DNA of 64,000 nt from the NCBI RefSeq assembly GCF_011045165.1, contig NZ_JAAKZI010000009.1, forward strand, positions 1-64,000, read 5' to 3'. This DNA comes from Arthrobacter silviterrae. Lineage in GTDB: Bacteria; Actinomycetota; Actinomycetes; Actinomycetales; Micrococcaceae. A program made the translations under genes and the position numbers. Within the stretch, counting starts at the first letter, position 1; the number at the start of each line of letters is the position of its first letter. Below the pieces are notes generated by a model. That model saw only the letters and a program-made list of their open reading frames with translations, did no database searches and was not told the origin of the DNA. Shown piece after piece: positions 24,134 through 60,220 of the stretch.

Positions 24134-24205
24134 CAACTGTGCGTCAGAAACTGCACGGAAAGTGGCCGATTTGGCGTCTTTTCGTGCAGTTTCTGACACC
24201 TAGTT
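24134..24205. repeat. Long palindromic repeat, copy A
   Basis: A left arm beginning AACTGTGCGTCAGAAACTGC and its inverse (24183-24205) share a 15-nt core GTCAGAAACTGCACG plus outer AACT/AGTT; four positions near the ends no longer pair. The right arm contains the TAG stop codon (24200-24202) of the nuclease gene. Copies B, C and D occur at 25200, 51680 and 60150. Confidence 0.9.
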
Positions 24206-25135
24206 TTGCGGACGCCAGCCGCGACTGAACAACGCCGAACGAATCTTCCGGACGGCGGCGCGGGCGTCGTCCGTCATGTGGTTCTTCGCGATCCGCACCT
24301 CGGTCCATCCGGCCGCCGCAAAGTCCTCCTGGCGCCTGATGTCGCGAATGACCTGGTCGGGGTCGGCGTGTGTGCCGCCGTCGTACTCCACCGCGACCCG
24401 ATAGTCGGGGTAGGACTGGTCCGGCTGGCGTGACTTCCCGTCGGCCAGCGGTATGTTCTTGTTGATGTCCGGTTCCGGAAGGCCAGCATAGACAACGGCG
24501 AGCCGGAGACGTGTTTCAGGCGCTGAATCGGACCCGACTCTCGCAAGCGTACGTGCGGCACGGGCTTTTTGTATGCCAGGTGTGCCCTTGTGCCGCTCCA
24601 ACATTTGGGACAGTTCAGCCAAAGTGGCGTAGGCCTCGGAGCGGCCTTCGAACTCGGGCCGCGGAATGCGGATCAAGTGGTCCGCGACCACCACCAGCTC
24701 ATCGACTGTCATTCGGCGGGCACAGTCCAGCCACGTCCTTACCCGGGTGGTGATCCACAGGCCGTCGAGACATTCCACTTCATCGTCCCGGAATTTGGTT
24801 CGGTGGCCTTCCACGCCGTGGCGGCGGGGAATGTTGTGTGGGAACTGGCGGGAAATGTGAATGAGGGTGTCATTCCGGACGGGGAGGAACCCTGGAAGTT
24901 CCCAGATGGCAAACGCCGTGGCGTGGGATGCAGCGGAATATCCGGTGACCTGGGTGAATGGCCGGGTGAGAAGCGCCAAAGGAACATCAGCGTCATCGAG
25001 GCTCTTGATGCCGCGGCTGATCCGCACGATTTCCTTGTGGCGCAGCCGGCCGGGACTCACCAGGCAGTCTTTGGCCGTGTCGAGAGTAAAGGGTCCGGAT
25101 TGAAGTCGGTCCGGGAACCCGGCGCGGGTGAACAT
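24200..25135 (-). CDS. Vsr/DUF559-type nuclease-like protein with AbiEi-like N-terminus
   Basis: A 311-residue protein of a type frequent in actinomycetes. Residues about 1-200 resemble the AbiEi-like antitoxin/regulator region (SAASHATAFAIWELPG; GLWITTRVRTWLDCAR; VVVADHLIR). The C-terminus (about 205-305) carries PD-(D/E)XK-type signatures of very-short-patch-repair-like DUF559 proteins: SAPETRLRLAVVYAGLPEPD, DQSYPDYRVAVEYDGGTH, then RRQEDFAAAGWTEVRI. Acidic residues in ETRLR, DYRVAVEYDG and the following basic helix could form an active site. It is bracketed by palindromes A and B and interrupts the MurNAc cluster. DNA cleavage is inferred, not shown. Confidence 0.75.
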   Translation of the reverse strand: MFTRAGFPDRLQSGPFTLDTAKDCLVSPGRLRHKEIVRISRGIKSLDDADVPLALLTRPFTQVTGYSAASHATAFAIWELPGFLPVRNDTLIHISRQFPHNIPRRHGVEGHRTKFRDDEVECLDGLWITTRVRTWLDCARRMTVDELVVVADHLIRIPRPEFEGRSEAYATLAELSQMLERHKGTPGIQKARAARTLARVGSDSAPETRLRLAVVYAGLPEPDINKNIPLADGKSRQPDQSYPDYRVAVEYDGGTHADPDQVIRDIRRQEDFAAAGWTEVRIAKNHMTDDARAAVRKIRSALFSRGWRPQN

Positions 25136-25199
25136 GTGACCATGATGGCAATTTTGGGCGGATTCCGTTTAAGTTATCCACAGCCTCCGCCGGGTAGGG

Positions 25200-25270
25200 A
25201 ACTGTGAGTCAGAAACTGCATGAAAAATGGACATTTCGACGAGTTTCGGTGCAGTTTCTGACTCACAGTT
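25200..25270. repeat. Long palindromic repeat, copy B
   Basis: 71 nt. The left arm AACTGTGAGTCAGAAACTGC+A (25200-25220) is perfectly inverted at 25250-25270, with a 29-nt spacer. The nagZ stop codon TGA (25263-25265) lies inside the right arm, so the last two codons and stop of nagZ (CAA CTG TGA) are repeat sequence. It begins 64 nt upstream of the nuclease start. Confidence 0.95.
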
Positions 25271-27059
25271 GGGAGAGGGTGAGGAGGGTGGTGACGGCTT
25301 GGGCGGTCACCTGGCTGAAGCCGTGGCAGTGGATGGTGGTCAGTGCCGTGCCGGAGGCCTTGCGGCTGGCCGGGACCAGCCCGGCGTTGATGCAGATGGC
25401 GTGCGGGGCCACGGAGGCCACCTGTGCCAGGGTGGCCTGCTGGTCGTGGGACATCAGCGAATCCACCAGCACCAGCACCGGTTCGCCCAGTGATTCCTCC
25501 GTGCTCACCAGGTCGGACAGGTTCTCCGCATTCAGCGAGGACGCGGAGAGTGCGTTCACCTGGAAATGGTCCAGCAGGGCCGCGGCGAGGAAGTTGTCCG
25601 TGGGTCCGGCCGCCATGTTGTGGCCCGTGCGGGCATCAACCAGGGTGACGACGGCGTCCGGCAGCGGCAACGTCCCGGCGCCCTGGTCCACTTGGCATGC
25701 CTTGGCGGCCACAGAGATCCAGTCGGGGGAGTCCACGTCCACGTTGGAGCCGGCGGACGCGTTGCCGTCGGACGCCTTGCCGCCGTCGTCCGCCTTGCCG
25801 CCGTCGTCCGCCTTGCCGCCGTCGGACGCGTTGCCGCCGTCGGACGCGTTGCCGCCGTCGGACGCGTTGCCGCCGTCGGACGCGTTGCCGCCGTCGGCCG
25901 CGGCGCTCCCCGCCCGGGCAGCCGCCGTCGACCATTGGGCAAACGCAGCGACCCGCGCCGCCGCGCCCTGCAGCACGGAAACCGGCAGCCGGCCGGAGGA
26001 AACCGCCGACATCAGCGCGGAATGCACCTCGAGGTAGCACGATTGGTCGTCACGCCCCGTGGTGTAGGCATTGAGCGGGTTGCCCACGCAGAGCAGGTCT
26101 GAGCCCGCCAGCAGCGCCAGCACCGCCCCTTCGCCCGGGCCCACGGTGGCACGGACGGCGGCCATGTCCAGGGCGTCGGTGACCAGCAGCCCGTTGAACC
26201 CCATCCCGCGGAGCAGGGCCGCCGCCCGCGGATTCAGCGTGGAGGGCGCCTCGCCCAGCTCCGGCACAATGATGTGCGCCGTCATGACGGCGGCCACACC
26301 GGCATCCACGGCGGCCTGGAATGGCGGCAGGTGGTCCCGGCGCAGCTGAGCCAGGGTCAGGTCCACGCGGGCCACATCCATGTGCGAGTCCGCCACCGTG
26401 TCCCCGTGCCCCGGAAAATGCTTGGCACACGCGCCCACGCCCACTGACTGGATGCCGGCCACGGCCGCCGCGGTGTGTTTGCTGACCAGGTCCGTGGTGG
26501 CACCAAACGCCCGCACCCCGATCACCGGGTTCAGCGGGTTCGTGTTGACGTCCGCCACCGGTGCGATGGCCAGGTTCACGCCGGCCTCCCGGCACAACCG
26601 CCCAATGGCCCGGCCCGCGGCTTCCGTGACGGCCGCATCGTCCAGCGCCCCCAGCACCGCGGCGCCGGGTACGGTGGAGCCGTCCCGGGACTGCAGCCGG
26701 GTCACGTTTCCGCCTTCCTCATCAACGCCGACGACGGCGGACGGGTTGGCTTCCCGGATTGCGGCAGAGAGTGCCGCCACCTGTCCGGGGACGTCGGGAT
26801 CGATGTTGTGGCTGAAATACACCACGCCCGCCAGGCCGTTGCGCAGGGCCGCATCGAGCCAGGCCGGGACCGTGGTGCCGACAAAACCGGGCCAGATGAC
26901 GGAGTTGACCAGGCGGGACAGCTCCGGGGAATACCCCGCTGCGGCCCCGGCGGCAGCCCCGGCTTCAGCCCCGGCTGCGGCCCCGGAAAATCCAACAGCC
27001 TCGGCGGCATCGGGGCTGGATTCGGGCGCGGGGGAGTGGGGCAGCTCACGGGACGTCAT
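25263..27059 (-). CDS. nagZ: NagZ-like beta-N-acetylglucosaminidase, GH3
   Basis: A 598-residue glycoside hydrolase family 3 enzyme from the ATG at 27059. The catalytic domain shows GVDEEGGNVTRL, KHFPGHGDTVADSHMD (the His/Asp dyad typical of NagZ rather than other GH3), and GLLVTDALDMAAV with the nucleophile Asp. No signal peptide, so probably cytosolic, removing GlcNAc from muropeptides for recycling. A Ser/Asp/Gly/Asn repeat linker (residues about 385-435) joins a C-terminal domain of about 165 residues, making it longer than the ~340-residue Gram-negative enzyme but similar to Firmicutes NagZ. It is separated from murQ-murR by the nuclease and palindromes, and its stop comes from palindrome B. 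Confidence 0.9.
   Translation of the reverse strand: MTSRELPHSPAPESSPDAAEAVGFSGAAAGAEAGAAAGAAAGYSPELSRLVNSVIWPGFVGTTVPAWLDAALRNGLAGVVYFSHNIDPDVPGQVAALSAAIREANPSAVVGVDEEGGNVTRLQSRDGSTVPGAAVLGALDDAAVTEAAGRAIGRLCREAGVNLAIAPVADVNTNPLNPVIGVRAFGATTDLVSKHTAAAVAGIQSVGVGACAKHFPGHGDTVADSHMDVARVDLTLAQLRRDHLPPFQAAVDAGVAAVMTAHIIVPELGEAPSTLNPRAAALLRGMGFNGLLVTDALDMAAVRATVGPGEGAVLALLAGSDLLCVGNPLNAYTTGRDDQSCYLEVHSALMSAVSSGRLPVSVLQGAAARVAAFAQWSTAAARAGSAAADGGNASDGGNASDGGNASDGGNASDGGKADDGGKADDGGKASDGNASAGSNVDVDSPDWISVAAKACQVDQGAGTLPLPDAVVTLVDARTGHNMAAGPTDNFLAAALLDHFQVNALSASSLNAENLSDLVSTEESLGEPVLVLVDSLMSHDQQATLAQVASVAPHAICINAGLVPASRKASGTALTTIHCHGFSQVTAQAVTTLLTLSQL
25762..25902 (-). repeat. 18-nt tandem repeat inside nagZ
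   Basis: One 15-nt unit and seven 18-nt units (consensus on the + strand TTGCCGCCGTCGGACGCG; two units carry GTCCGCC). Four consecutive units at 25813-25884 are identical. It encodes repeats of Asp-Gly-Gly-Asn-Ala-Ser or Lys-Ala variants, a flexible linker between domains. Copy number could vary without a frameshift. Confidence 0.95.
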
Positions 27060-27134
27060 GCCTGACAGCCTACCTAGTGGTAGTGGCATAAACTTGAGGT
27101 GTCGCCATCATCGACCAACCCCTGGAGAATTTCT

Positions 27135-28802
27135 GTGACCAGCTCACGCCTTAATCGTGTTCCCATCCGCCGGGCCCTCATCTCGGTCTACGACAAAACC
27201 GGTTTGGAGGAGCTGGCCGCGGGCTTGCACGCCGCTGGCGTCGCCATTGTTTCCACGGGTTCCACCGCGGCCAGGATTGCCGCGGCGGGCGTCCCCGTGA
27301 CGGAAGTTTCCGAGGTCACCGGCTTCCCGGAATGCCTTGACGGCCGCGTGAAGACCCTGCACCCGCTGGTCCACGCCGGCATCCTGGCTGACCGCCGCCT
27401 GCCGGACCACGTCCGCCAGCTGGCCGAAATGAACATTGAACCCTTCGACCTGGTGGTGGTGAACCTCTACCCCTTCGTGGACACCGTGAAGTCCGGTGCC
27501 GGGCAGGACGCAGTGGTTGAGCAGATCGACATTGGCGGCCCCTCGATGGTGCGCGCAGCCGCCAAGAACCACCCGTCGGTGGCCGTGGTGGTGGACCCGG
27601 CCAAGTACGCCGACGTCGTGCTGGCCGCAGCGGAAGGCGGGTTTACGCTGGTGGCCCGCCAGCGCCTGGCCGCGGCAGCCTTTGCCCACACGGCCGCGTA
27701 TGACAACGCCGTGGCCGCCTGGACGTCCGCCCAGTTCCTGGATGAGGACGGCGACGGCGCCATTGACTGGCCCGCCTACGCCGGCTACTCGCTGGAGCGT
27801 TCCGAGGTGCTGCGCTACGGCGAAAACCCGCACCAGCAGGCGGCCCTCTACGTGGACAAGGCGGCCCCGGCCGGCATCGCCCAGGCAGACCAGCTCCACG
27901 GCAAGGCCATGAGCTACAACAACTTTGTCGACGCCGACGCCGCCCTCCGCGCCGCGTTCGACTTCGCCGGACCGGCCGTGGCAGTGGTTAAGCACGCCAA
28001 TCCCTGCGGCGTGGCCGTGGGCTCCCCGGACGCCGCGGATCCTATCGCGGACGCCCACGCCAAGGCCCACGCCTGCGACCCCCTCTCTGCCTTTGGCGGC
28101 GTGATCGCGGCCAACCGCACCGTCACCAAGGCCATGGCGGAGACGGTGAAGGGCATTTTCACCGAGGTGGTCATCGCCCCCGACTTTGAGCCCGAAGCCG
28201 TGGAAATCCTGTCCAAGAAGAAGAACATCCGCCTGCTGGCCCTGCCCGAGGGCTACGACCGCTACCCGGCCGAGGTCCGCCAGGTCTCCGGCGGCATGCT
28301 GGTGCAGATGGCTGACAAGATCAACGCCGACGGCGACAATCCCGCCAACTGGACCCTCGCCGCAGGCCCCGCCGCCGACGACGCCACCCTCGCGGACCTC
28401 GCGTTCGCCTGGACGGCCGTGCGGGCCGCCAAGTCCAACGCCATCCTGCTCGCCCACAACGGCGCCACGGTGGGCATCGGCATGGGCCAGGTCAACCGGG
28501 TTGACTCCTGCAAGCTGGCCGTGGAACGCGCCAACACGCTGGGCGTTTCGGTTGAATCCGACGTGGACGGCGCCGGCGGGGCAGCCGGCACCGGTGCTGT
28601 TTCCGAACAGCGCTCCGTGGGTGCCGTGGCCGCCTCCGACGCGTTCTTCCCCTTCGCCGACGGCCTGGAAATCCTGCTCGACGCCGGTGTGCGCGCGGTG
28701 GTCCAGCCTGGCGGCTCAGTCCGCGACGAGGAAGTCATCGCCGCCGCCAACAAGGCCGGCGTGACCATGTACTTCACCGGCGCGCGCCACTTCTTCCACT
28801 AA
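27135..28802 (+). CDS. purH: Bifunctional AICAR formyltransferase/IMP cyclohydrolase PurH
   Basis: A 555-residue enzyme for the last two steps of IMP synthesis. The N-terminal MGS-like IMP cyclohydrolase domain has [30 protein letters not shown] and [15 protein letters not shown]. The C-terminal transferase has [25 protein letters not shown] with the catalytic Lys-His pair, and the final [14 protein letters not shown] and TGARHFFH. The GTG at 27135 has GGAG 7 nt upstream. It consumes 10-formyl-THF; its substrate ZMP is the ligand of the riboswitch at 61165. It is divergent from nagZ and ends at a 20-bp terminator. Confidence 0.98.
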
Positions 28803-28809
28803 TTGGAGA

Positions 28810-28858
28810 ACGACGGCGGCGGGGCACCTTCCAGCGGGAGGTGCCCCGCCGCCGTCGT
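28810..28858. terminator. 20-bp perfect hairpin terminator after purH
   Basis: The arms at 28810-28829 and 28839-28858 (ACGACGGCGGCGGGGCACCT and its inverse) pair perfectly over a 9-nt loop, followed by GCTTT. It shares its outer ACGACGGCGG arm with terminators at 36918 and 63620. The rest of the 309-nt gap to icd holds a CATAAT-like -10 around 28986 and no gene. Confidence 0.85.
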
Positions 28859-29111
28859 GCTTTAAGAGCGTTCGGGGTGGACAATGCCAAACGCCGGGGG
28901 CGCACCGGGGGCGCATGGCAACAACCACCCCCGGGCCCGCGCAGGGAAACGTGCCGGACAGCTTTTGGCGGACGGGCCGCAGTGGGTCATAATAGCGCCC
29001 GCACGGCGGCCGATAGCGGGCTGGGGCGCTCCCTCGGGTAAGTTGGAGGGGATAGAAATCTCACCAGATTCGCTTTTAAGCACCTGATTTTTACAGGAGA
29101 CGCCTCAACCC

Positions 29112-31331
29112 ATGGCTAAAATCATCTACACCCATACCGACGAAGCGCCCATGCTGGCCACGTATTCACTCCTGCCCATCGTCCAGGCCTTCGCCTCGAC
29201 TGCCGGCGTTGACGTCGAAACCCGCGACATTTCACTCTCCGGTCGCATCATTGCTGTTTTCGGCGACTACCTGGCCGAGGACCAGCGCATTGAAGACGCC
29301 CTGGCCGAGCTGGGCGCCCTGGCCAAGGACCCCGACGCCAACATCATCAAGCTGCCGAACATCAGCGCTTCCATCCCGCAGCTCAAGGCCGCCATCGCCG
29401 AGCTCCAGGGCCAGGGCTTCGCCCTCCCGGACTACCCGGACGACCCCTCCACGGATGAGGAAAAGGACGTCCGCGCCCGCTACGACAAGATCAAGGGAAG
29501 CGCCGTGAACCCGGTGCTGCGCGAAGGCAACTCGGACCGCCGCGCGCCCCTGTCGGTGAAGAACTACGCCCGCCAGAACCCGCACAGCATGGGCGCCTGG
29601 TCCAAGGACTCCAAGACCAACGTGGCCACCATGTCCACGGGCGACTTCCGCCACAACGAGAAGTCGGTGGTCATCCCCGCCGACGACAAAATCAAGATCC
29701 AGTTCGTGGCCGCCGACGGCACCGCCACCGTGCTCAAGGACGCCTTCCCCGTCCTGGCGGGGGAGATCGTGGACGGCACCGTGATGCGCGCCGCCGCCCT
29801 GGACGAATTCCTGGCCGCCCAGGTGGCCCGCGCCAAGGAGGAGGGCATCCTGTTCTCCGCGCACCTGAAGGCCACCATGATGAAGGTCTCCGACCCCGTC
29901 ATCTTCGGCCACGTGGTCAAGGCCTACTTCCCCGAGCTCTTCGCCAGCTACGGCGATGCGCTGGCCAAGGCGGGCCTGAGCCCCGCCAACGGCCTCGCCT
30001 CCATCCTCAACGGCCTGGACGCGCTGCCGGCCGATGTCCGCGAGGGCGTCCAGGCTGCCATCAAGAAGGGGTACGACGACGGCCCCGCCCTGGCCATGGT
30101 CGATTCCGACAAGGGGATCACCAACCTGCACGTCCCTTCCGACGTGATTGTGGATGCCTCCATGCCCGCCATGATCCGCTCCTCCGGCCACATGTGGGGT
30201 GCCGACGGCAAGGAGCACGACACCCTGGCCGTGCTGCCGGACAGCAGCTACGCCGGCGTGTACCAGGTGGCCATTGACGACTGCCGCAACAACGGCGCCC
30301 TGGATCCCGTGACCATGGGCACCGTGCCCAACGTGGGGCTCATGGCCCAGGCCGCAGAAGAGTACGGCAGCCACGACAAGACCTTCATTCTCGATGAAGC
30401 CGGCAGCGTCCAGATCGTCAATACTGCCGGCGAAGTGCTGATCTCCCACGACGTGGCAGCCGGCGACATCTGGCGTGCCTGCCAGGTCAAGGACATCCCC
30501 GTCCGCGACTGGGTCAAGCTGGCCGTCACCCGCGCCCGCGCCTCCGCCACCCCCGCCGTGTTCTGGCTGGACCCGAGCCGCGCGCACGACTCCCGGCTGA
30601 TCGAAAAGGTCAACGAGTACCTCAAGGACCACGACACCGAGGGCCTGGACATCCGGATCATGACCCCGGAGGAGGCCACGGCGTTCAGCTTCGAACGCAT
30701 CCGCCGCGGTGAAGACACCATCTCCGTCACCGGCAATGTGCTCCGCGACTACCTCACGGACCTGTTCCCGATCCTGGAACTGGGCACCAGCGCCAAGATG
30801 CTCTCGATCGTCCCCCTCATCGCGGGCGGCGGGCTCTTTGAAACCGGCGCCGGCGGCTCCGCCCCGAAGCACATCCAGCAGCTCGTGAAGGAAAACCACC
30901 TGCGCTGGGACAGCCTGGGCGAATTCCTGGCCCTGGCCGTCAGCTTTGAGCACCTGGCCGTCTCCAAGGGCAATGCCCGGGCACAGATCCTGGCCGACAC
31001 CCTGGACCGCGCCACCGGCACGTTCCTGCTGCAGAACAAGTCCCCGAAGCGCAAGGTGGGCGAAATTGACAACCGCGGCAGCCACTTCCACCTGGCCAAG
31101 TTCTGGGCGCAGGAACTGGCAGCCCAGACCGACGACGCCGAACTGGCCGCCGCGTTCGCAGCCGTCGCCGCGGACCTGACCGACAATGAGGACACCATCG
31201 TCGCCGAGCTGCTGGCCGTGCAGGGCTCCCCGGTGGACCTGGGCGGCTACTACCGCACTGACCCGGCCAAGGTTGTCGCCGTCATGCGCCCCTCGGCCAC
31301 GCTGAACAAGGCCATCGACACCCTGAGCTAG
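29112..31331 (+). CDS. icd: Isocitrate dehydrogenase (NADP+), monomeric type
   Basis: A 739-residue monomeric NADP-isocitrate dehydrogenase (TCA cycle: isocitrate to 2-oxoglutarate, CO2 and NADPH). Its length is exactly that of the family (about 740), roughly twice the dimeric enzyme. Seen: [21 protein letters not shown] at the start, [20 protein letters not shown] for substrate, [40 protein letters not shown] for metal and substrate, and [13 protein letters not shown]...[12 protein letters not shown] for NADP. The monomeric form is usual in Corynebacterium and Micrococcales. The ribosome site AGGAGA is upstream, and the gene is monocistronic with its own terminator. Confidence 0.98.
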
Positions 31332-31375
31332 GCTCCGGCCCCAAAAAAAGCCCGCCCGCGGGCCTGCGCCGCAAG

Positions 31376-31407
31376 AAAAGCCCGCCTCCCACTGGAGGCG
31401 GGCTTTT
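31376..31407. terminator. Intrinsic terminator after icd
   Basis: AAAAGCCCGCCTCC (31376-31389) pairs perfectly with GGAGGCGGGCTTTT (31394-31407) over CACT, and the T run continues. It is bidirectional in form. A smaller GCCCGC-CGGGC hairpin lies just before it (31350-31362). Confidence 0.92.
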
Positions 31408-31589
31408 TATTGTCCCCGGGCGCCGCCGTCGTGCCTTTCGGCGCAAAAAACCTTCCGTTATCAGATCTTTATGAGCAAATGTGTCTTGCACCACATTTGG
31501 GGGGTAGTGTCTGATGTCGTGAAGAGTAAGGATCCCGGTAGGACGACGACGTCCGCCGGCCCTTGCGACATAGTCTGGAAGGCGAATCT

Positions 31590-32828: not shown

Positions 32829-32960
32829 TTCGGGCGCACAAGGCTGTGGGACGGGGGATCTCCGGCCCACAGCCTTTGCGTGCCACCTTATCCCGTTCTC
32901 CCTACCGGCAGCGGCCGGCCCATCCGATGCCGTGGGCGCTGCCAAGATCAGGATGTCCGC

Positions 32961-36775: not shown

Positions 36776-36785
36776 CCCCACCTAA

Positions 36786-36884
36786 GATCCTCCCTCACCT
36801 TTTGTGGTGTTTTGGGGGGATCCTCCCTCACTTTTCGGGGTGTTTGGCGGGGATCCTCCCTCACCTTTAGTGCTTCCCGGGGTA
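36786..36884 (+). repeat. Three 33-nt tandem repeats, forward block
   Basis: GATCCTCCCTCAC starts at 36786, 36819 and 36852, each followed by CTTTT- and G-rich sequence, with a period of exactly 33 nt. The core CCTCCCTCACCTTTTG is the inverse of the core in the 32-nt block at 36974. It is non-coding, between convergent livF and the dehydrogenase gene. Confidence 0.9.
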
Positions 36885-45434: not shown

Positions 45435-45435
45435 C

Positions 45436-48217: not shown

Positions 48218-48329
48218 GTGGATAGCGTACAGGATGTTTTGCACTACGTTGAGATGTGGGTCACAGCTTTATTGTTGAGAAACGGGAACAGCGCCTCCAG
48301 CAGGCTTTCGAGAGAATTGGATCAAGAGG

Positions 48330-49988: not shown

Positions 49989-49991
49989 GGC

Positions 49992-51641: not shown

Positions 51642-51679
51642 CCCCCGGTGGGCGCGTTCGAGAATCGACAACCCCCCCC

Positions 51680-51750
51680 AACTGTGAGTCAGAAACTGCA
51701 CGAAAACCCGTCGTTTTGGGCGAATTCCGTGCAGTTTCTGACTCACAGTT
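51680..51750. repeat. Long palindromic repeat, copy C
   Basis: 71 nt with perfect 23-bp arms (beginning AACTGTGAGTCAGAAACTGC) and a 25-nt spacer. The TGA stop (51743-51745) of the DUF2891 gene lies in the right arm, and its last codons are CAA CTG TGA, exactly as for nagZ in copy B. It lies between convergent davB-like and DUF2891 genes. Confidence 0.97.
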
Positions 51751-52807
51751 GAGGGTGGAGAGCGGCGGAGGCCAGGGCGTCCCAGGCGAAGCTGGCCAGC
51801 CAGTGGCTCGACATGAACTCTTCCGTCATTACGGAAGCCAGGCCCGGCTCGAGCAGCAGCGGCACGGCGGCGTCCACCACTGCGGCGAGCTGTCCGGCGT
51901 CGGGGCCGCCGTTTGCCCCGCCATGCCGGAGGGCCTGGCCGATGCGAATGAGCTGCCCGGCCCGGGTCAGGTTGAGCCCGTTCAGGTGGGCCAGGTAGCC
52001 GTCGGATTCGTCGGTGACCGAATACCTCGCCAGGATCCGCGAGTCCGGGCCAAGGTCCGGCAGGAAGGCGGCGAACCACTCGGCAAACGCCTCGGGAGCG
52101 AGCACCCGCGCCATGAGGTCGGCTTCGCTCAGCCCCGCGGAGAGGAAGTCCTGCCCGCTCATTTCCCACCCGCCGGGCCAGCCGGCGTCGTGCTTGAACC
52201 AGCGCAGCGCAGTCTGCTCGCACACACCAGCCGCCTTGTCGCGCCCCAGGGCGCGGAAGGCGTCGAGCAGGAGGCCCAAGCCGAAGGCCGCGTTGGTGTG
52301 CAGGCCGTGGCGGACCGGGAATTCCGCCTTCTCCGCCCAACCCGCCACAAGCCCGGCCACGATGTCCACCAGCGGATCGAGGGCGGCGCCCCACGCCTTG
52401 ACCTGCGGATCGGCGGAAGCGGCCGCCGCCGCGGCGAGCCGCACCAGCCAGGCCCAGCCGTAGGGGCGCTCCCAACTGGGGTTGTTCAGCAGGTACGCGC
52501 CCTCAACGACCAGGTTTTCCGGCGTCAGGTTCGCAGCAAGGGCCGTGCGCAGCTGGGCGTCCAGGCCGGCGTCGAGCCCGTGGCCCAGCAGCGTCACGCC
52601 CAGCCAGCTCATGTGGACGCAGGAGTGCCAGTCGAAGGACGTGTAAAACGCGGGGTGCAGTTCCTGCGGGCTGGGCCTGTCCGCCAGTGACGTCTCCACA
52701 TGGTGGGAAGCGTACGGGTAAGGCCGGGCCAGGTTGTCCAGGACGATCCCGGCGTAGTGGTTGGCCAGCGAATCCATGCGGGCGGCGGCGTCGGGGGCGG
52801 TGGTCAT
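51743..52807 (-). CDS. DUF2891 family protein
   Basis: A 354-residue soluble protein. It is rich in His/Trp/Tyr motifs expected of an alpha/alpha-toroid: YPYASHHVE, HPAFYTSFDWHSCVHMSWLG, NPSWERPYGWAWLVRL, NLTRAGQLIRI and SSHWLASFAWDAL. These match DUF2891, whose function is not established. The ATG at 52807 is preferred because AAGGATG sits 6 nt before it. It lies downstream of DUF979 and DUF969, and probably in their transcript, which links it to the 5-oxoproline-type cluster. Its stop codon is provided by palindrome C. Confidence 0.85.
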   Translation of the reverse strand: MTTAPDAAARMDSLANHYAGIVLDNLARPYPYASHHVETSLADRPSPQELHPAFYTSFDWHSCVHMSWLGVTLLGHGLDAGLDAQLRTALAANLTPENLVVEGAYLLNNPSWERPYGWAWLVRLAAAAAASADPQVKAWGAALDPLVDIVAGLVAGWAEKAEFPVRHGLHTNAAFGLGLLLDAFRALGRDKAAGVCEQTALRWFKHDAGWPGGWEMSGQDFLSAGLSEADLMARVLAPEAFAEWFAAFLPDLGPDSRILARYSVTDESDGYLAHLNGLNLTRAGQLIRIGQALRHGGANGGPDAGQLAAVVDAAVPLLLEPGLASVMTEEFMSSHWLASFAWDALASAALHPQL

Positions 52808-52875
52808 GGGCATCCTTCGGTGGTTATCTCGAACTTCGACGGGGCGACGGGGGGAGGGGGCGAGCGGGGGAGGGG

Positions 52876-53853
52876 CTAGGCGTGGGGGAAGGCGAGGAAG
52901 TACATCAGGGCGATGTTGACGAACAGGAGCGGCACGCCGGTGGCCACCTGGGCCGTGATGACGCCGTACTTGTTCTTCATTTCCAGCAGCGCGGACGGGA
53001 CCAGGTTGAAGTTGGCCGCCATGGGCGTGCACAGGGTGCCGCAGAATCCGGCCAGCATGCCGATCGCAAACACGATGGCCGGCTGGCCGTGGAAGCCCTG
53101 CACCAGCACGGGCCAGCCGATGGCCGCCGTCATGATCGGGAACGCGGCAAAACCGTTGCCCATCAGCACCGTGAAGATGAACATGCCCACGCAGTAGACC
53201 ACCACGGCGGCAATCAGGGAACCGTTCGGCAGCAAACCCTTGGCAAGCGTTCCGACGGCGGTCCCCACCCCGGCCTTCGTGAACAGGATGCCCAGGGTTG
53301 AGAGCATCTGGGGCAGCAGCGCGGCCCAGCCGATGGTTTCCAGGATGCGCCGGCCCTCCAGGACTGGGGCCAGCTTATTCTTCGGGCGCAGGATGGCGAC
53401 ACCGACGACGGCGGCAACCACGGCGCCGATGCCCAGGGCCACCAGCGTGGTGTGGGTGGGGTCGATGAGGGGCTTGGCGCCAATCTTGAGCACGGGTGCC
53501 AGCAGGACGACGGCGACTGTAACCACCGGCAGTGCCAAGGCGGGGATGAAGAGCTTGTTGCCGAACTTTCCGGCGAAGGCGGTCCGCTGTTCCTCCGTGG
53601 TGGTCTTGGCGCGGCCGTCGCCCAGCAGCCCCGTGCTGGCCAGGGCCACCAGAACCAGGACGGCGATGCCCAGCACCCAGGCCGGGGCGGTTTTCGCCTC
53701 AACGGCGGTGCCGTAGAAGAAGCACAGGCCAAGCAGCCCCCAGAAGGACGAGCTGCCCCAGCGGCGCGGGTGGGTTGCGTCACGGGCTATCAGGAATGCC
53801 CAGCCGACAAACAGCAGGCCAATGAGCCAGTAGATGGATTCGACGTTGATCAT
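52876..53853 (-). CDS. DUF979 membrane protein, transporter subunit
   Basis: A 325-residue membrane protein with nine or ten hydrophobic segments. Family-like stretches are WLIGLLFVGWAFLIARD, LLPQMLSTLGILFTKAGVG and MGNGFAAFPIMTAAIGWP, plus GTLCTPMAANFNLVPSALLE. It always pairs with DUF969. In several bacteria the pair lies beside pyroglutamyl peptidase or 5-oxoprolinase genes, so a 5-oxoproline or peptide-derived substrate is likely. It overlaps DUF969 by 4 nt (ATGA). Confidence 0.88.
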   Translation of the reverse strand: MINVESIYWLIGLLFVGWAFLIARDATHPRRWGSSSFWGLLGLCFFYGTAVEAKTAPAWVLGIAVLVLVALASTGLLGDGRAKTTTEEQRTAFAGKFGNKLFIPALALPVVTVAVVLLAPVLKIGAKPLIDPTHTTLVALGIGAVVAAVVGVAILRPKNKLAPVLEGRRILETIGWAALLPQMLSTLGILFTKAGVGTAVGTLAKGLLPNGSLIAAVVVYCVGMFIFTVLMGNGFAAFPIMTAAIGWPVLVQGFHGQPAIVFAIGMLAGFCGTLCTPMAANFNLVPSALLEMKNKYGVITAQVATGVPLLFVNIALMYFLAFPHA

Positions 53854-54575
53854 GCTGCTCCTCCGGCGGGGGCGGTGTGTGCGGCTGCGGACTCTTCGGC
53901 GCGGGCCTCCTGGACGGCCTTGTCCAGCTGGCGGTCAAGGCGCAGCAGGCGGAAGCCGTGGATCAGGAAGGCGCAGATGGCCGTGGGGATGGCCCAGATG
54001 GCCAGCTGCAGGGGCTCCAAGTGGAGCCCGTAGGTGGTGTCGACGAAGGTGGTGATCAGCAGAATGGAGCCGACGGCGACAAACACGTCCTCGCCAAAGA
54101 ACACGCCGACATTGTCCGCCGCGGCACTGTGGCCCTTGATCTTCTCCCGCACCTTGTCCGGCACGGAGCCGTAGCGCCGCAGCGCAGCACCTTCGGCCAT
54201 GGGGAAGACCAGCGGGCGGACCGTCTGGGCGTGACCGCCGATGCTGGTCAGGCCCACAGCGGCGGTGGCCTGGCGGATCAACAGGTAGCCGATGAGCACC
54301 CTGCCGGTGGTGAGCCGGGCCAGCTTGGAAATGAGCGCCTTGGCCTGTTCCTGCAGCCCGAACCGCTCGATCAGGCCGATGACAGGGAGCACCACCACGA
54401 AGATGGTGACGGAGCGGCTGCTGGAGAATCCGGAGCCGAAGGCGTTGAGGATCTGCAGAGGGGTCATGCCGCCCAGGAGCGCCGTGACGATGCCGGAAAT
54501 GGTGACAACAAGGAGGGGGTTCAGGCGGATGGCGAAGCCAACAATCACCAGCAGGACCCCGATGAGTACAAGCAT
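53850..54575 (-). CDS. DUF969 membrane protein, transporter subunit
   Basis: A 241-residue membrane protein with about six segments and a soluble Ala/Glu tail. Characteristic are NPLLVVTISGIVTALLGGMTPLQILNAFGSGF, FVVVLPVIGLIERFGLQEQAK and GGHAQTVRPLVFPMAEGA, as well as DNVGVFFGEDVFVAVGSILL. It is the partner of DUF979 and the first gene of the DUF969-DUF979-DUF2891 transcript. The promoter upstream contains two GntR-type sites. Confidence 0.88.
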   Translation of the reverse strand: MLVLIGVLLVIVGFAIRLNPLLVVTISGIVTALLGGMTPLQILNAFGSGFSSSRSVTIFVVVLPVIGLIERFGLQEQAKALISKLARLTTGRVLIGYLLIRQATAAVGLTSIGGHAQTVRPLVFPMAEGAALRRYGSVPDKVREKIKGHSAAADNVGVFFGEDVFVAVGSILLITTFVDTTYGLHLEPLQLAIWAIPTAICAFLIHGFRLLRLDRQLDKAVQEARAEESAAAHTAPAGGAA

Positions 54576-54697
54576 AATTATCCGTTCCTGCCGCGGCAGG
54601 AAGCCGGGCCGTTATGACGGGCGTAGTGGATCCGGTGGGCGTGCTGCCCGGGCCGGCCGGACGCCCGCCAAGGGTGGCGGCCGTCACTGTGAACTAC

Positions 54698-54743
54698 ATC
54701 ATATGCTTTTGTTCAACAATCCTGCAAGTGTTTGTTGAACAAT
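54698..54743 (-). promoter_or_regulatory. DUF969 promoter with two GntR operators
   Basis: On the minus strand TTGCAG (54722-54727 on +) and TATGAT (54698-54703 on +) are 18 nt apart, a good promoter for DUF969. TTGTTCAACAAT (54709-54720) fills the spacer, and TTGTTGAACAAT (54732-54743) sits just upstream of the -35. Both fit the TTGT-N3-ACAA pattern of FadR-type GntR proteins. The first site would block RNA polymerase directly. Confidence 0.75.
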
Positions 54744-54756
54744 CCCGGAAAGGGTC

Positions 54757-55431
54757 TTAAGGGGCGACGGCGAACTGCTCCAGCAGCTCCGCCTCAGCGA
54801 CGTCGAGGTAGCTGCGCAGCCTCTCGGCGGCCTCGGCCCGCTGCCCGGCGGCCAGCAGCTCGAGGAGTTCAGCATTGAGTTCCACGTAGCGGCTGTGGAA
54901 GCCCGGGGCGCTGCCCATGGCATGGAACACCAGCCGCATCTGCGCCAGCACCCGCGACATCACCTCCAGCAGCCCGGTGCTGCCCGTGCCCAGGATGAGA
55001 GCCTCGTGGAAACGCTGGTTGGCGGCGGCCATTTCCGGCACCGAGCTGCGCGCCTGGGCGTCCCGGGCCTCCGCCACCACCCGGCGGAGTTCCGCGATGT
55101 CCGGCCCGGGTCCCCAGAGGGCGGCCGCCGGCTCCAGGATGCGGCGCACGCTGTAAATCTCACGGATCTCCTCCGGCCCGGGGGAGGCGACAAACACTCC
55201 ACGGTTCGGGATCCGCGTGACGATCAGCTCGCCGTCGAGCACGGTGAAGGCCTCGCGCAGGGTGTTGCGGGAAACGCCCAACGTGGCCGAGAGGGACTGT
55301 TCGGAGAGCTTGGTGCCGGGCACCAGCTGGCCCTCTGCGATGCGGCTGCGCAGCACCGAGGCCACCCATGCGCCCGTGTGGGCATGGGTGGCGGCGGATG
55401 GAAGGTCCCCGAGGGCGGCGTTCATTGGCAT
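54757..55431 (-). CDS. GntR-family regulator, FCD/FadR subfamily
   Basis: A 224-residue repressor. The N-terminal winged helix (about 20-85) has LRSRIAEGQLVPGTKLSEQSLSATLGVSRNTLREAF and RIPNRGVFVASPGPEEIREIYSVRRILEPAA. The C-terminal FCD ligand domain has metal-type residues in NQRFHEALI and HSRYVELNAELLELLAAG. It lies between the two transcripts it probably controls. Matching TTGTTSAACAA sites occur before DUF969 and before pxpA. The likely signal is 5-oxoproline or a product. Confidence 0.93.
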   Translation of the reverse strand: MPMNAALGDLPSAATHAHTGAWVASVLRSRIAEGQLVPGTKLSEQSLSATLGVSRNTLREAFTVLDGELIVTRIPNRGVFVASPGPEEIREIYSVRRILEPAAALWGPGPDIAELRRVVAEARDAQARSSVPEMAAANQRFHEALILGTGSTGLLEVMSRVLAQMRLVFHAMGSAPGFHSRYVELNAELLELLAAGQRAEAAERLRSYLDVAEAELLEQFAVAP

Positions 55432-55489
55432 GGTTCCAATCTATCCAACCCGGCGGGCCATGCTGCGCACGGCAGCTATTCGATGGGGG

Positions 55490-57271
55490 CTATTCGATGC
55501 GGCACACTGCCTCGCCGCGCGCAATCTGCCCGCCCACGGTGTGGGGGCCGTGCACCACGGTGCCGGCACGGTGTGCCGTGACGGTTGATTCCATCTTCAT
55601 CGCTTCAAGCACGACGACGGCGTCCCCGGCCGCGACGGTGGCCCCGTCGGCTGCCGCCCACTTCACGAGCCTGCCGGTCATGGGGGCCGCCAGTACCACG
55701 GCGTCGACGGCGGGGCCGCCGTCGTCCGTGGTGTCCGGGGTGCCGGCGCCGGAGATCCGGCCGGCGGTGCCGTCGTCGTCAAAAATCCCGCTGTTTCCGT
55801 TGCGCAGGCCGGCCAGCAGCCGCGCGGGCAGCCCGATCCGCAGCGCCTTTCCGTCCACGTCCACGGTCAGTTCCTCGCGCCGGCCATCCGGCTCGGCCCG
55901 GGCGATCTGGTCCGAGGCGGCCAGCGTGGCCGCGAACTCCGACTCGATCCAGGTGGTGTGCACGCCGAAGCGGCCCTCCGCGGTGAAGGCAGGGTCGCGG
56001 ACCACGGCGCGGTGGAACGGCAGCACGGTGGGCAGGCCCGTGATGGCCATTTCGTCCAGGGCCACCCGGGCCCGGCGCAGGGCCTGGGCGCGGTCGGCGC
56101 CGTGGACAATGAGCTTGGCCAGCAGGGAGTCGTAGTCGCCGGGCACGGTGGAGCCGCTCCGGACGCCGGAATCGACGCGGATGCCGGACCCTGTGGGCGG
56201 CTCGAAGGCCGTGATGGTGCCGGGGCCGGGCAGGAAACCGCGGGCCGGGTCCTCGGCATTGAGGCGGAACTCAAAGGCGTGGCCCACAGCCGGCGGATCC
56301 TCCGTGAAGCTCAGCGGCTCCCCGGCGGCGATGCGGAACTGCTCGGCAACCAGGTCCACGCCGGTGGTTTCCTCCGTGATGGGGTGTTCCACCTGGAGGC
56401 GGGTGTTGACCTCCAGGAAGGAGACAGTGCCGTCATCGGCCACGAGGTACTCCACTGTGCCTGCGCCCTGGTAGCCGGCCTCCCGGCAGATGGCCTTGGC
56501 GGAGGCGTGGATGCTGGCCCGCTGGGCATCTCCGAGGAATGGCGCCGGGGCCTCCTCGACCAGTTTTTGGTGGCGGCGCTGGAGGGAGCAGTCCCGCGTG
56601 CCCACCACCACCACATTGCCGTGCTGGTCCGCCAGCACCTGGGCCTCCACATGGCGGGGGCGGTCCAGGAACCGCTCCACGAAGCATTCCCCGCGCCCAA
56701 ACGCGACGGTTGCCTCGCGGACGGCGGATTCAAAGGCGTCGTCAATCTCGTCCAGGGTCCGGGCAATTTTCAGCCCGCGACCGCCCCCGCCGAACGCCGC
56801 CTTGATGGCGACGGGCAGGCCGAACTGCTCCGCGAACGCCCGGACCTCGGCGCCGGATCCCACGGGGCCGTCGCTGCCGGGCACCAGCGGGGCGCCGGCG
56901 CGGACGGCAATGTCGCGGGCCGTGACCTTGTTGCCCAGGTCCCGGATGGCCTGCGGCGGCGGCCCGATCCACGTCAGCCCGGCGTCGATCACGGCCTGGG
57001 CGAAATCCGCGTTCTCGGACAGGAAGCCGTAGCCGGGGTGGACGGCGTCGGCCCCGGAGCGGACGGCCACGTCAATGAGCTTTTCGATGTTCAGGTACGT
57101 GTCCGCACCGCTACGCCCGCCCAGCGCGTAGGCCTCGTCGGCCCGGCGCACGTGCAGGGCGTCGGCGTCGGGCTCGGAGTATACGGCAACGGACGCGAGC
57201 CCGGCATCGGCGCAGGCGCGGGCCACGCGGACGGCAATTTCGCCGCGGTTGGCAATCAGGACTTTCTTCAT
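55490..57271 (-). CDS. Biotin carboxylase with BCCP domain (AccC-like)
   Basis: A 593-residue protein. The N-terminal biotin carboxylase (about 1-450) shows [47 protein letters not shown] for ATP and [17 protein letters not shown]. The C-terminal 75 residues are a biotinyl domain with [11 protein letters not shown], Lys being the biotin site. It starts inside the end of the PxpB-PxpC gene (4-nt ATGA overlap), so the products are made together. It probably supplies carboxybiotin to the neighbouring carboxyltransferase-like fusion rather than to fatty acid synthesis. Confidence 0.93.
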
Positions 57272-59025
57272 GAACGGGTTCCTTGGTGGCTCGGGGTGTC
57301 GGTGGGGGTGGCGGGGTTCGCGGGGACAAAGCGCACCCGGGTGCCTGGCGGCAGCTGCGCGGCGGCGGAGAGATCCTCCGGAACGACGGCGGCAATGACT
57401 GGGTAGCCGCCCGTGACCGGGTGGTCGGCCAAAAACAGCACGGGCAGCCCGGACGGCGGCACCTGCAGGGCCCCCCAGACCACGCCTTCACTGGCCAGCT
57501 CGCCGTCACGCAGCCGCGGAACGGGCATGCCGCCGTCGGCCAGTTCCAGGCGGATGCCAATCCGGTTCGAGGCGGCGCCCACCAGCCAGTCCTGCCCGGC
57601 CAGCGCCGCCATGCCCGCCCCGCCGAACCAGTCGTCCCGCGGGCCGGGCGTGATGCGGAGCGTGGCGGTGCCGGAGGCGGGCAGCGGGCGCAGGGTGGAC
57701 GGCTCCGGTGAACCCACCACATGGGCGCCGCGGACGGGCCCCACGGGAATGCGGCTGCCGGGGGCCAGGGGGGCCGGGCCGATCCCCGACATCAGGTCAG
57801 TGGACCGGCTGCCCATCACCTTGGCCACCGCCGCACCGCCGCGCACGCCGAGGTAGCAGCGCAGCCCCTCCGTGGCGGGATCCAGCGTGAGCGTCTCGCC
57901 GTCCAGCAGCGCGAACGGGGCATCCTGTGCGGGATGGCGTTCGCTCCGGCTGGGGTCCGCCGGGGTGATGCGGAGCGCGGTCCGGGCGCCGGTCACGGCC
58001 AGGACCTGGTCGGATTCGGCCCGCAGGACCAGGGAACCCAGCAGATTTTCGACGACGGCGTCCCCTGCCTGGTTGCCCACCAGCCGGTTGGCCTGCCGGG
58101 CCGCCGAAGGGTCCGCGGCGCCTGCCGCAGACACTCCCAGATCGCCCAGGCCCGGCCTGCCCAGATCCTGGATGAGCGACTGCAGGCCGGCGCAGACCAC
58201 CAGCAGGCTGCCCGCTTGCTGGCCTGTGGCTTCGGCTGTGGCTTCCGCGGTGCCGACCATTGCTTCCGCGGTGCCGGCCGGGGAGGTGCCGGCGTCGTGC
58301 TTGCTTGGGGTTGTTCCGGCGTGGAGGCGCAGGGCGGGGCGGGCCGGGATGAAGCGGACGCGGTCCTGGGGGCGGATGAGGGCCGGGCTTTCGCGCTCCA
58401 GCGACCAGAGGAGGGCGTCGGTGTGGCCTATCAGCTGCCAGCCGCCGGGGGACTGGCGCGGGTACACGGCGGAATAGTCGCCGGCGAGTGCCACGGCGCC
58501 GGCGGGCACGGCGGTGCGCGGGGTGCTGCGGCGGGGGACGTGCAGGGCCGTGTTTTCGCCCAGCAGGTACGCGAAGCCCGGGGCGAATCCGCCAAATGCC
58601 GCCCGCCAGGTCTGGCCTGTGTGCGCGGCGATGACGCCTTCCGGGCTCAGGCCCGTCAGTGCGGCAACTTCGGCGAGGTCGGCGCCGTCGTAGTTCACCT
58701 CGACCTCCACCAGCCGGCCTGTCCCTGTGGGGGCCGTGCCGAGGTCCAGTGCCCGGATGGCGGCGGCGGCCTTGCGGGCCGCATTGGGGGAGTCAAACTT
58801 GACCAGCACCGTGGCCGCCGCGGACAGGGCATCCAGCTGGCCGGGCAGGGGGGATTCCGCCAGCCGGGCCGCCAGGGCCAGCACGGCTTCAAGCGTGGAG
58901 AGCTCCACCAGGAGGGCGCGCGTGCCGGCGGGGCGGATGGCCGTGATGGTGCCGGTTTCCCGGATCGGTGCGGCCATGGCGGGGGCATTTGCCGCGCTCA
59001 CGCTGGCGGGCATGCTGGCGTTCAC
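57268..59025 (-). CDS. pxpBC: Fused PxpB-PxpC (KipI-KipA type carboxyltransferase/5-oxoprolinase)
   Basis: A 585-residue fusion with a GTG start overlapping the pxpA stop by 4 nt. Residues about 20-230 are the AHS1/PxpB (KipI) part with [34 protein letters not shown] and [21 protein letters not shown] low-complexity linker of about 40 residues rich in Ala/Thr/Glu follows. Residues about 275-570 are the AHS2/PxpC (KipA) part with [31 protein letters not shown] and GPRDDWFG. In Escherichia coli the same parts with PxpA open 5-oxoproline to glutamate with ATP. Coupling to a biotin carboxylase gives a urea-carboxylase-like set. Confidence 0.92.
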
Positions 59026-59780
59026 GCAAAGCTCTTGATCTGCACGCCGGCATTTTCCAGTGCGGCGCGGACAGCTGCGGCCATGGCCACGGCGCCGGCG
59101 GTGTCGCCGTGGACGCAGATGCTCTCGGCCGGCATGGGGATGACGCTGCCGTCGATTGCCGTGACGGTGCCCTCGGTGGCCAGGCGGACCATGTTGGCGG
59201 CGACCTGCGCGGGATCGTGCAGCACGGCATTGGCCTCGCGGCGGGAGACCAGCGTTCCCTCCGGCGTGTAGTTGCGGTCCGCGAAGGCCTCCGCCACGGC
59301 GCGCAGCCCCTGCGCCCCCGCCTTGGCCAGGGCCACCGATCCGGGCAGGAGCAGGAGGGGAAGGTCCGTTCCGAACGCCTTGACAGCGTCGACCACGGCC
59401 TGGGCGTGCCCTTCGTGGTGGACGATCGTGTTGTAGAGCGCGCCGTGGGGCTTGACGTACTTGATGGTGGCCCCGGCGGCCCCTGCCAGGGCGGACAGGG
59501 CGCCGAGCTGGTACAGGACGTCGTCGGCGAGTTCGGTGGGGGAGCAGTCCAGGAAGCGGCGGCCAAATCCGGCCAGGTCCCGGTATCCCACGTGTGCCCC
59601 GATGGTGACGCCGGCGGCCACGGCGTCGCGGCACGTTTGGGCAATGGTGCTCGGGTCCCCGGCATGGAATCCGCAGGCTACGTTGGCGCTGGAGACGGAG
59701 GTGAAGATGGCGGCGTCGTCGCCCATGGTCCAGTTCCCGAACGATTCGCCGACGTCGGAATTGAGGTCAATGTAAGGCAT
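59022..59780 (-). CDS. pxpA: 5-oxoprolinase subunit PxpA (LamB/YcsF family)
   Basis: A 252-residue protein. Typical PxpA stretches are [53 protein letters not shown] and [14 protein letters not shown], including the conserved His and Asp residues of the putative active site. The ATG at 59780 is chosen over 59813 because MPYIDLN is the normal start and GGGGAT lies 6 nt before. First gene of pxpA-pxpBC-accC, downstream of the GntR-type site at 59833. Confidence 0.95.
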
Positions 59781-59832
59781 GTGTGATCCCCGTCTCGTGA
59801 TGTGGTTCTCCAAGCATGCCCTACTTCTGTAG

Positions 59833-59845
59833 ATTGTTCAACAAT
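59833..59845. promoter_or_regulatory. GntR operator before pxpA
   Basis: ATTGTTCAACAAT is a perfect palindrome apart from its centre, 53 nt upstream of the pxpA start. It is the same sequence as the operator in the DUF969 promoter (54709). On the minus strand TTGAAC within it could serve as the -35, with CATGCT 17 nt downstream as the -10. Confidence 0.75.
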
Positions 59846-59951
59846 CTTGGCCGGCGAATTTGGCGGGGTGCCGGCGCGCGCCAACGTTCAGCAGCCGTCA
59901 CGGCGCCCGTCACCAATGCCTGGTGCCCAGCCCGACGGCGGCACTTCTCGC

Positions 59952-60020
59952 GGGGGCCAAACTCGTGGCGGGTTTTGCCCCGGGTGCACTGGGGGCCAAA
60001 CTCGTGGCGGGTTTTGCCCC
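59952..60020. repeat. Two tandem 30-nt hairpin repeats
   Basis: GGGGGCCAAACTCGTGGCGG followed by GTTTTGCCCC occurs identically at 59952-59981 and 59991-60020, 39 nt apart. Each copy folds as GGGGC-AAAC-CG against CG-GTTT-GCCCC over TGG. They lie between the divergent pxpA promoter and the purU 3' region. They could act as terminators for transcripts coming from purU, or be a repeated nucleoid element. Confidence 0.9.
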
Positions 60021-60045
60021 AGCGGAAACTCCCGGGCAACTCGTT

Positions 60046-60100
60046 TTAGTCGAAAACCACCGTGCGGTGGCCGTCGAGGAGCACGCGGTGCTCGGCGTGC
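60046..60100 (-). pseudogene. Duplicated 3' end of purU
   Basis: These 55 nt match the true purU 3' end (60243-60297) at 52 positions, in the same orientation, 197 nt apart. Both read HRVLLDGHRTVVFD and stop; all three differences are synonymous. The similarity ends abruptly at 60100/60101. There is no start and the rest of the gene is missing. Between the two tails lie 49 nt of unrelated sequence, palindrome D and 22 nt. Confidence 0.9.
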
Positions 60101-60149
60101 GGCCAGACGGCAGGTGAAGCCGGGGGCGCACCGACGCAGTGCCGTTCCA

Positions 60150-60220
60150 AACTGTGTGTCAGAAACTGCATGGAATTCCCCGTTTTTGGGTGAATTCCAT
60201 GCAGTTTCTGACACACAGTT
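60150..60220. repeat. Long palindromic repeat, copy D
   Basis: 71 nt with perfect 29-bp arms (starting AACTGTGTGTCAGAAACTGC) and a 13-nt loop that itself has CCC/GGG. It is the best-preserved copy. It lies 22 nt after the purU stop codon, between the real purU end and its duplicated tail. Confidence 0.97.

Follow-up and report, generated by a model that had tools for sequence, protein, structure and literature searches.

In REPtrons, as described in the parts of three papers used here (PMC6006769, PMC8266576, PMC3733652), a RAYT gene is bordered by the repetitive extragenic palindromic (REP) sequences that it supposedly mobilises, solo copies lie elsewhere, and a genome can contain several families, each with its own enzyme. 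In TIRYT elements, or TIRtrons, a transposase gene is flanked by inverted repeats, and some of these repeats constitute a family as well, according to the relevant part of one of these papers (PMC3733652). Here, we describe a comparable layout in a 64,000-nucleotide stretch of the Arthrobacter silviterrae genome (contig NZ_JAAKZI010000009.1, positions 1 to 64,000; hereafter, the window). Four palindromes in this window, copies A to D, belong to a family that we call F1, and a nuclease gene lies between A and B. We consider it probable that A to D belong to one REP-like family among several, that at least three such families in this genome each bracket a nuclease of their own, and that the palindromes are spread by these nucleases. 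The original prediction, which was made from the window alone, had favored either a mobile family resembling REPs or miniature inverted-repeat transposable elements, or selected terminators or mRNA stabilisers. Of its two readings, the mobile one is preferred here, and the 3'-end bias of F1 agreed with it; the candidate nuclease had been missed, and the nature of the palindromes was therefore reinterpreted. The main features are as follows:

24200-25135, minus strand: candidate cognate nuclease of 311 amino acids, with an AbiEi-like N-terminal half and a DUF559/Vsr-like PD-(D/E)XK C-terminal half.
24134-24206, no strand: F1 palindrome copy A, the 3' bracket of the nuclease gene; its right arm contains the TAG stop of that gene.
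25199-25271, no strand: F1 palindrome copy B, which precedes the nuclease start by about 64 bp; its right arm supplies the final codons and TGA of a GH3/nagZ-like gene.
51679-51751, no strand: F1 palindrome copy C, with convergent genes on either side; its right arm supplies the final codons and TGA of a DUF2891 gene.
60149-60221, no strand: F1 palindrome copy D; the stop of a purU-like gene is 21 bp away.

The likeness to the REPtron lies in a nuclease gene bordered by its own palindromes, in solo copies elsewhere, and in several families with family-specific enzymes. Unlike the HUH enzyme of the REPtron, the enzyme here is an AbiEi-DUF559/Vsr-like fusion, and Y1_Tnp is absent from the A. silviterrae genome; the palindromes are about 50 to 74 bp long, compared to 20 to 40 in REPs, and no GTAG/CGTC foot was seen. 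The TIRtrons are similar in that the enzyme gene is flanked by repeats that also form a family; they differ in using an HUH tyrosine enzyme, and here the single repeat is itself a palindrome. Integron attC sites are long, imperfectly paired palindromes that lie at the 3' ends of genes. The window palindromes share this length and position, whereas the R''/R' core does not match their edges and their neighbors are convergent chromosomal genes.

The two halves of the nuclease have separate relatives. The N-terminal half resembles the type IV antitoxins AbiEi and Rv2827c; the AbiEi binding site consists of two 23-bp inverted repeats, and the AbiEi and Rv2827c spacers are 3 and 13 bp, as given in part of the source paper (PMC7319586). 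Unlike AbiEi, the window protein is fused to a nuclease, its gene neighbors are a murR-type regulator and a GH3 gene rather than a toxin, and matching sites are dispersed. The C-terminal half, including its invariant residues, resembles Vsr, REase_MTES_1575, and DUF559 nucleases. MTES_1575 is described as a Vsr-fold restriction endonuclease in a large multidomain protein, in contrast to the 311-residue fusion found here, and palindromes are not mentioned for it in the part of that paper used (PMC3710099). Neither a link between DUF559 and palindromic repeats nor DUF559 together with AbiEi was found in our searches of the open-licence PMC literature, in which 14 papers contain DUF559; two of these also contain a palindrome term and, by title and opening of the abstract, deal with CRISPR and NAD metabolism. 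AbiEi and palindromes occur together in 39 papers.

The domain assignments were based on profile matches. In the window protein, residues 12 to 151 matched the PADLOC AbiEi model (E 4.6e-13), and residues 243 to 302 matched Pfam REase_MTES_1575 (E 2.2e-7; 31.3 bits versus a cut-off of 38.2) and DUF559 (E 4.1e-4; 20.6 bits versus a cut-off of 20.6). The PADLOC model matched all six nucleases compared with it at E ≤ 0.1, including a second protein (P0004) at 1.5e-15; the Pfam AbiEi model was weak (3 of 30 nucleases). At E ≤ 0.1, DUF559 was found in 24 and MTES_1575 in 22 of 30 nucleases, and when 11 were viewed singly, DUF559 reached or exceeded its cut-off in eight and MTES_1575 exceeded its own in none. 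Residues D239, G253, H256, D265, R268, and W277 were invariant across the 30 aligned proteins. Comparison of the same 30 with the sequences of solved structures gave three weak matches up to E 1, the only fitting one being 3hrl (endonuclease-like, E 0.009), and a single-sequence structure prediction of the window nuclease was of low confidence (mean predicted local distance difference test score, 37).

The palindromes themselves were readily recognized. The 13-mer GTCAGAAACTGCA occurred exactly eight times in the window, as four inverted pairs, and with up to two mismatches, it had nine matches versus 0.88 expected, a number that was reached in 0 of 100 shuffles. All four copies were present where they had been placed. 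The shared length, reported as 71 nt for three of them, extended to all four, with a value of 73 nt for each copy when the outer base is included. Uninterrupted outer pairing was 21 bp in B and 29 bp in D, as predicted, and 24 bp in C instead of the 23 claimed; in copy A, pairing is broken near its ends. A stop codon lies inside an arm in three of the four copies (A, B, and C). In keeping with the earlier description, copies B and C both supply the ending CAA CTG TGA, to the unrelated GH3/nagZ-like and DUF2891 genes, and the stop in A is the TAG of the open reading frame at 24200-25135. At the Rfam gathering score, A to D were unmatched, and the sole match in the window was a ZTP riboswitch elsewhere.

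In the whole A. silviterrae genome (G000, 4.29 Mb; other G numbers denote compared genomes, namely, 22 congeners and G028 from outside the genus), F1 had 15 strong copies (E ≤ 3.1e-8, either strand) and two weak ones. These came from 150 scored out of 552 first-look candidates, with a covariance model for which 14 copies from the genome were used; copy C12 was found later. Each copy was 72, 73, or 74 nt long. The suggestion of many copies per genome was thus only partly right, and the density implied by four in 64 kb proved to be a local cluster, half of it because A and B bracket a single gene. Conservation of pairing was borne out: among 14 of the copies, all but C12, 13 of 31 arm pairs were changed on both sides (9.2 in shuffles), and there were 35 compensatory cells (17.7 in shuffles, with 0 of 500 shuffles as high), values that are uncorrected for relatedness. 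The folding energies of the 14 copies ranged from -19 to -58 kcal/mol, with a strong hairpin on both strands.

The gene context of F1 was also biased. A strict coding score placed a gene 3' end near 10 of the 15 copies and left five uncalled, after which strand context was rescored more loosely. By this strand score, the neighbors were convergent at 10 of 15 copies, tandem at five, and divergent at none, whereas 83 of 457 intergenic regions were convergent. Without the doubtful copy D, whose left side is not clearly coding, the convergent share was 9 of 14. The gene calls came from our own codon-score script, which makes errors (copy A was called "inside" and copy C74 "divergent").

F1 is one of several families. 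A blind palindrome search of 839 kb of the A. silviterrae genome found 77 palindromes, with 11 in F1, 17 in F2, and four in F3, as well as smaller families and terminator-like hairpins. F2 brackets a nuclease gene at C24:23994-24920, and F3 brackets one at C12:100019-100951. Among 680 genes called in the 839 kb by the same script, five lay between matching palindromes (score ≥ 50), and three of these were the F1, F2, and F3 nucleases. With a free gap of 5 to 25 nt, the exact F2 pattern occurred at 17 sites in the whole genome, all with a gap of 11, and at none in the 22 congeners; the outer bases of this gap were near-constant and the middle seven variable (1.0 to 1.95 bits). The preference for gene 3' ends, as originally proposed, holds for F1 and fails as a general rule: of the 16 F2 copies that were classified, 13 lie between tandem genes (one of the 17 copies is "other"). 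The smaller families (on C19, C12, C96, C74, and C36) included CGTTGAGGTTGGAGATAACCACC and TGCCGCCGCTCCCGCATTTTGC, with three copies each, and a palindrome resembling the CGTTGAGGTTGGAGATAACCACC family is present in G022/G001.

The layout recurred around homologous nucleases. The best congener homologues of the window nuclease (in G010 and G017; 65 to 67% identical) each lie exactly between two palindromes, and the three neighborhoods (compared over stretches of 5.0, 5.2, and 9.5 kb) share no further gene beyond the nuclease and its overlapping frames. A four-protein profile found members in 23 of 23 genus genomes, with a close clade (E ≤ 7e-125) in 10. Seventy genus loci were fetched and 67 counted, with the broken or duplicate loci L187, L188, and L189 excluded. 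At each gene end, we counted palindromes of 44 to 100 bp with 16 of 18 outer pairs, in a span that reached 60 bp into the gene and 280 bp beyond it. At the 67 loci, 26 had such palindromes at both ends and 26 at one end. The same rule applied to the window gave seven palindromes, namely, A to D and three outside the family, from which about 0.016 unrelated palindromes are expected per flank. Two close-clade genes, at G010:C4:58566-61068 (L187) and G002:C1:522803-526701 (L189), appear to be in two parts, with other DNA of about 1.5 and 2.9 kb in between.

The arms also matched by unit. In 24 of the 26 two-ended units, the 5' and 3' palindromes matched each other with a score of at least 44, and in 20, the unit's own partner was the top match among all 26. 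The between-unit arm scores had a median of 16, a 95th percentile of 32, and a maximum of 82, with related nucleases included. Nuclease similarity and arm similarity were correlated across the 26 nucleases (Mantel rho 0.35; 0 of 2000 permutations as high). In G017, 19 distinct F1-type palindromes, a subset, split 14/4/1 over three close-clade nucleases by best arm match, and none was assigned to the two other nucleases tested.

Beyond the genus, in Sinomonas mesophila (G028, Micrococcaceae), a divergent AbiEi-DUF559 protein lies between a matching pair of longer palindromes, and its gene extends into the second palindrome. Among 58 genomes, including that of the window, the exact F1 13-mer was present in G028, had one unpaired match in G005, and was absent in 21 of the 22 congeners. 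A genome contig search with a two-arm pattern found only Sinomonas mesophila at a gap of 24 to 54 (records close to the genome of the window were possibly excluded) and nothing at a gap of 15 to 45. In the class Actinomycetes, the nuclease was found in 75 of 118 genomes. The best-scoring loci of 30 genomes, a non-random set that includes the window itself, had palindromes at both ends in 11 cases and at one end in 11, with L304 and L311 cut by contig ends so that one or both flanks of each were taken at a wrong position; 66 kb of outer flanks, used as a control, contained two palindromes. The arms matched in 11 of 11 two-ended loci (scores of 52 to 128). Thus, a nuclease between matching palindromes is a layout that recurs in other actinobacteria. 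At five loci from other actinomycetes (L301, L304, L306, L308, and L322), the flanking palindromes start with TTGATC(A/T)TGG-like sequence, a hint of a large separate family.

Homologues of the window nuclease were also seen in plasmid and phage records. Four large plasmid records of Arthrobacter and Tsukamurella (NZ_AP024648.1, NZ_AP024649.1, NZ_CP012477.1, and NZ_LR134454.1) contain homologues that are 30 to 55% identical, and one that is 30.7% identical lies at 4956-5957 of the phage record MT837503.1, a 6.7-kb "Bacteriophage sp." from human faeces. Plasmid and phage records searched with copy C and viral contigs searched with a narrow two-arm pattern gave no palindrome, and a search of viral contigs for the nuclease gave 191 pattern stretches, none of which was confirmed.

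The genes that adjoin the window copies are as follows:

22820-24079, plus strand: rpiR/murR-type regulator open reading frame, the left neighbor of the nuclease unit; the longest frame was taken, and the true start is probably further in.
25263-27089, minus strand: GH3 (nagZ-like) gene, the right neighbor of the nuclease unit, used for the empty-site comparison.
51743-53032, minus strand: DUF2891 gene, with its 3' end inside copy C.
60243-61118, minus strand: purU-like gene (formyltransferase and ACT), adjoining copy D.

The murR-nagZ junction contains the nuclease unit in G000, G009, and G015, with the nuclease inverted in G009, and in G005, G013, and G014, murR lies directly beside nagZ with no nuclease unit. 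In 15 other genomes, the neighbor of nagZ is murQ, and G018 and G021 differ from all of these. The murR-nagZ gap of G005 contains a palindrome of another family, which resembles one beside a different G005 nuclease (L209). In 200 kb of G002 and G012, which are about 90% identical, F1 copy C34:55090 is found only in G012 and C1:539606 only in G002; three more of the aligned copies occur in both genomes, in one case in degenerate form in G002, and C34:79368 had no assignable position. F1 copies thus differ between congeners at matching sites, through either gain or loss. Copy number followed the nuclease as well. The nine congeners with the close nuclease clade had a median of 16 F1 model hits and the 13 without it a median of 2 (P 0.0003), counted on both strands with at most 150 first-look candidates scored per genome.

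Palindrome length was constrained in a particular way. An F1-type pattern with a free gap of 25 to 55 nt, which misses the copies of A. silviterrae itself (a T in place of a purine), had 62 sites in 11 of the 23 genus genomes, 34 of them in G017, and control matches numbered 0. The lengths were 56 to 57 (39 sites) and 65 to 68 (23 sites), with none elsewhere between 47 and 77. The two classes are separated by about one helical turn, which suggests, together with the published AbiEi and Rv2827c spacers, that a protein recognizes the two arms from a single face of the duplex; two founder lengths retained by descent would explain the classes too. At the edges, TTAA lay within 8 bp of 24 of 74 F1-type copies, versus 5 of 68 convergent gaps that contain no palindrome and 20 of 680 stop codons. 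This motif could be an insertion target or an unpaired foot like the GTAG of REPs, and it is missing in two-thirds of the copies; no constant GTAG/CGTC foot was visible by eye in the 74 edge pairs listed.

A mechanism of the following kind would account for these observations. The mobile unit would be a palindrome, the AbiEi/DUF559 fusion nuclease, and a second palindrome, accompanied by dispersed solo palindromes with the same arms. The AbiEi-like half may bind the arms of about 22 bp as an inverted pair, as published for AbiEi, and the Vsr-type half may nick or cut the palindrome as a duplex, cruciform, or hairpin. Repair after cutting would seed new solo copies, which would persist where they are least harmful (gene 3' ends in the case of F1), and arms and nuclease specificity would change together. 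The working would be REPtron-like and built on a nuclease unrelated to RAYT; the families, the bracketing, the matching arms, the division of palindromes among nucleases, and presence or absence between congeners are observed, and what lies beyond this association, namely, binding of the arms by the nuclease and its role in spreading the palindromes, is what we infer. The wider proposal is more tentative, and we rate it a little short of an even call: an Actinomycetes-wide class of mobile repeats in which AbiEi-guided Vsr-type nucleases mobilise palindromes, convergent with RAYT/REP and chemically unrelated to it. In such a class, fast co-evolution of arms and nuclease would leave related species with different palindromes, and length would stay fixed as the loop is rewritten.

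The main rival is an operator model, in which the palindromes are binding sites for autorepression by the AbiEi-like nuclease and the solo copies are an immobile regulon or decoys. The match of the N-terminal half to AbiEi, the palindromes about 40 to 160 bp upstream of many nuclease starts, and the two length classes one helical turn apart agree with this model, as does the fact that the sites bound by AbiEi and Rv2827c, 23-bp inverted repeats spaced by 3 or 13 bp, lie upstream of the respective genes (PMC7319586, in the part used). Since the 3'-end palindromes are matched equally well, the solo F1 copies are located at the 3' ends of genes with none between divergent genes, and F1 copies are present or absent by congener, we regard this model as unlikely as a full account; an operator role and mobility can both be true. 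Improbable, in our view, is the idea that the palindromes were selected as bidirectional terminators or as stabilisers of mRNA 3' ends and share sequence by chance. Strong hairpins on both strands, the 10 of 15 copies at convergent 3' ends, and the compensatory arm changes are what such elements would show, whereas their sequence families would not be expected to vary by genome, to occur upstream of nuclease genes, to lie mostly between tandem genes, as F2 does, or to coexist with terminator-like hairpins of different sequence. The original prediction had offered this alternative, which leaves nuclease-matched palindromes at both gene ends and their presence or absence among congeners unexplained; termination could still be a side effect.

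About as improbable, or slightly more so, is a defence or toxin-antitoxin-like module whose nuclease attacks DNA that bears or lacks the palindromes, with the genomic copies titrating it or marking self; AbiEi and restriction-type domains in one protein fit such a module, and the wide variation of families and copy numbers between congeners speaks against it. Classical REPs mobilised by a RAYT (Y1/HUH) transposase would have the same overall layout as a REPtron, and we give this explanation very little credence. RAYT was rejected as the mover in A. silviterrae, where Y1_Tnp had no match as far as the Pfam model reaches. In the genus, Y1_Tnp was found in only two of 23 genomes, G016 (15 F1 model hits) and G019 (four), and it was absent from the four congeners richest in F1 (G017, G012, G002, and G021).

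Several results weigh against nuclease-driven spread, the reading that we prefer. The remaining two palindrome-bracketed genes in the 839 kb are not nucleases and lie between F2 copies. Flanking direct repeats of at least 20 nt were absent at 14 of the 15 F1 copies and present at D only, and by-eye inspection of the 15 copies revealed no evident short target duplications of the kind expected for a miniature element of a DDE insertion sequence. In G001 and G022, which are 97.7% identical, 8 of 8 palindromes in 200 kb were at matching places. G018 lacks the close clade and has six model hits and a good F1-type copy, L089, in which 19 of 22 outer pairs are formed, and G015 has the nuclease and one model hit. 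At the threshold used, 15 of the 67 genus loci and 8 of the 30 Actinomycetes loci had no palindrome, and a divergent DUF559 subgroup (L170, L174 to L176, L191, and L198) had a 3' hairpin alone, which is terminator-like. The Mantel correlation was modest, and the movement, binding, and cutting of palindromes by the nuclease are deductions from these comparisons.

Through this association, an orphan nuclease family that is common among actinomycetes, with members in 75 of 118 genomes, gains a context shaped by function, and the spread of palindromic repeats can be tested with an enzyme that is not a RAYT. Should the nuclease indeed move the palindromes, REP-like elements would have had at least two origins, each based on an unrelated nuclease. 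A number of "terminator" hairpins in these genomes could be repeats linked to nucleases, and the data suggest a little-known route by which bacterial genomes acquire scattered palindromes.

Additional observations concerned the surroundings of copy D. This copy lies between two versions of the 3' tail of the purU-like gene (60034-60100 and 60231-60297; 67 nt, 88%), and the 3' end of purU bears an F1-type palindrome in congeners G012 and G002 also. Just past the purU-like gene, on the opposite strand, positions 61158-61246 (plus strand) matched the ZMP/ZTP riboswitch (RF01750, 46.3 bits). On the other side of the copy, positions 59952-60020 contain a perfect 30-nt direct repeat in two copies with 39 nt between them.

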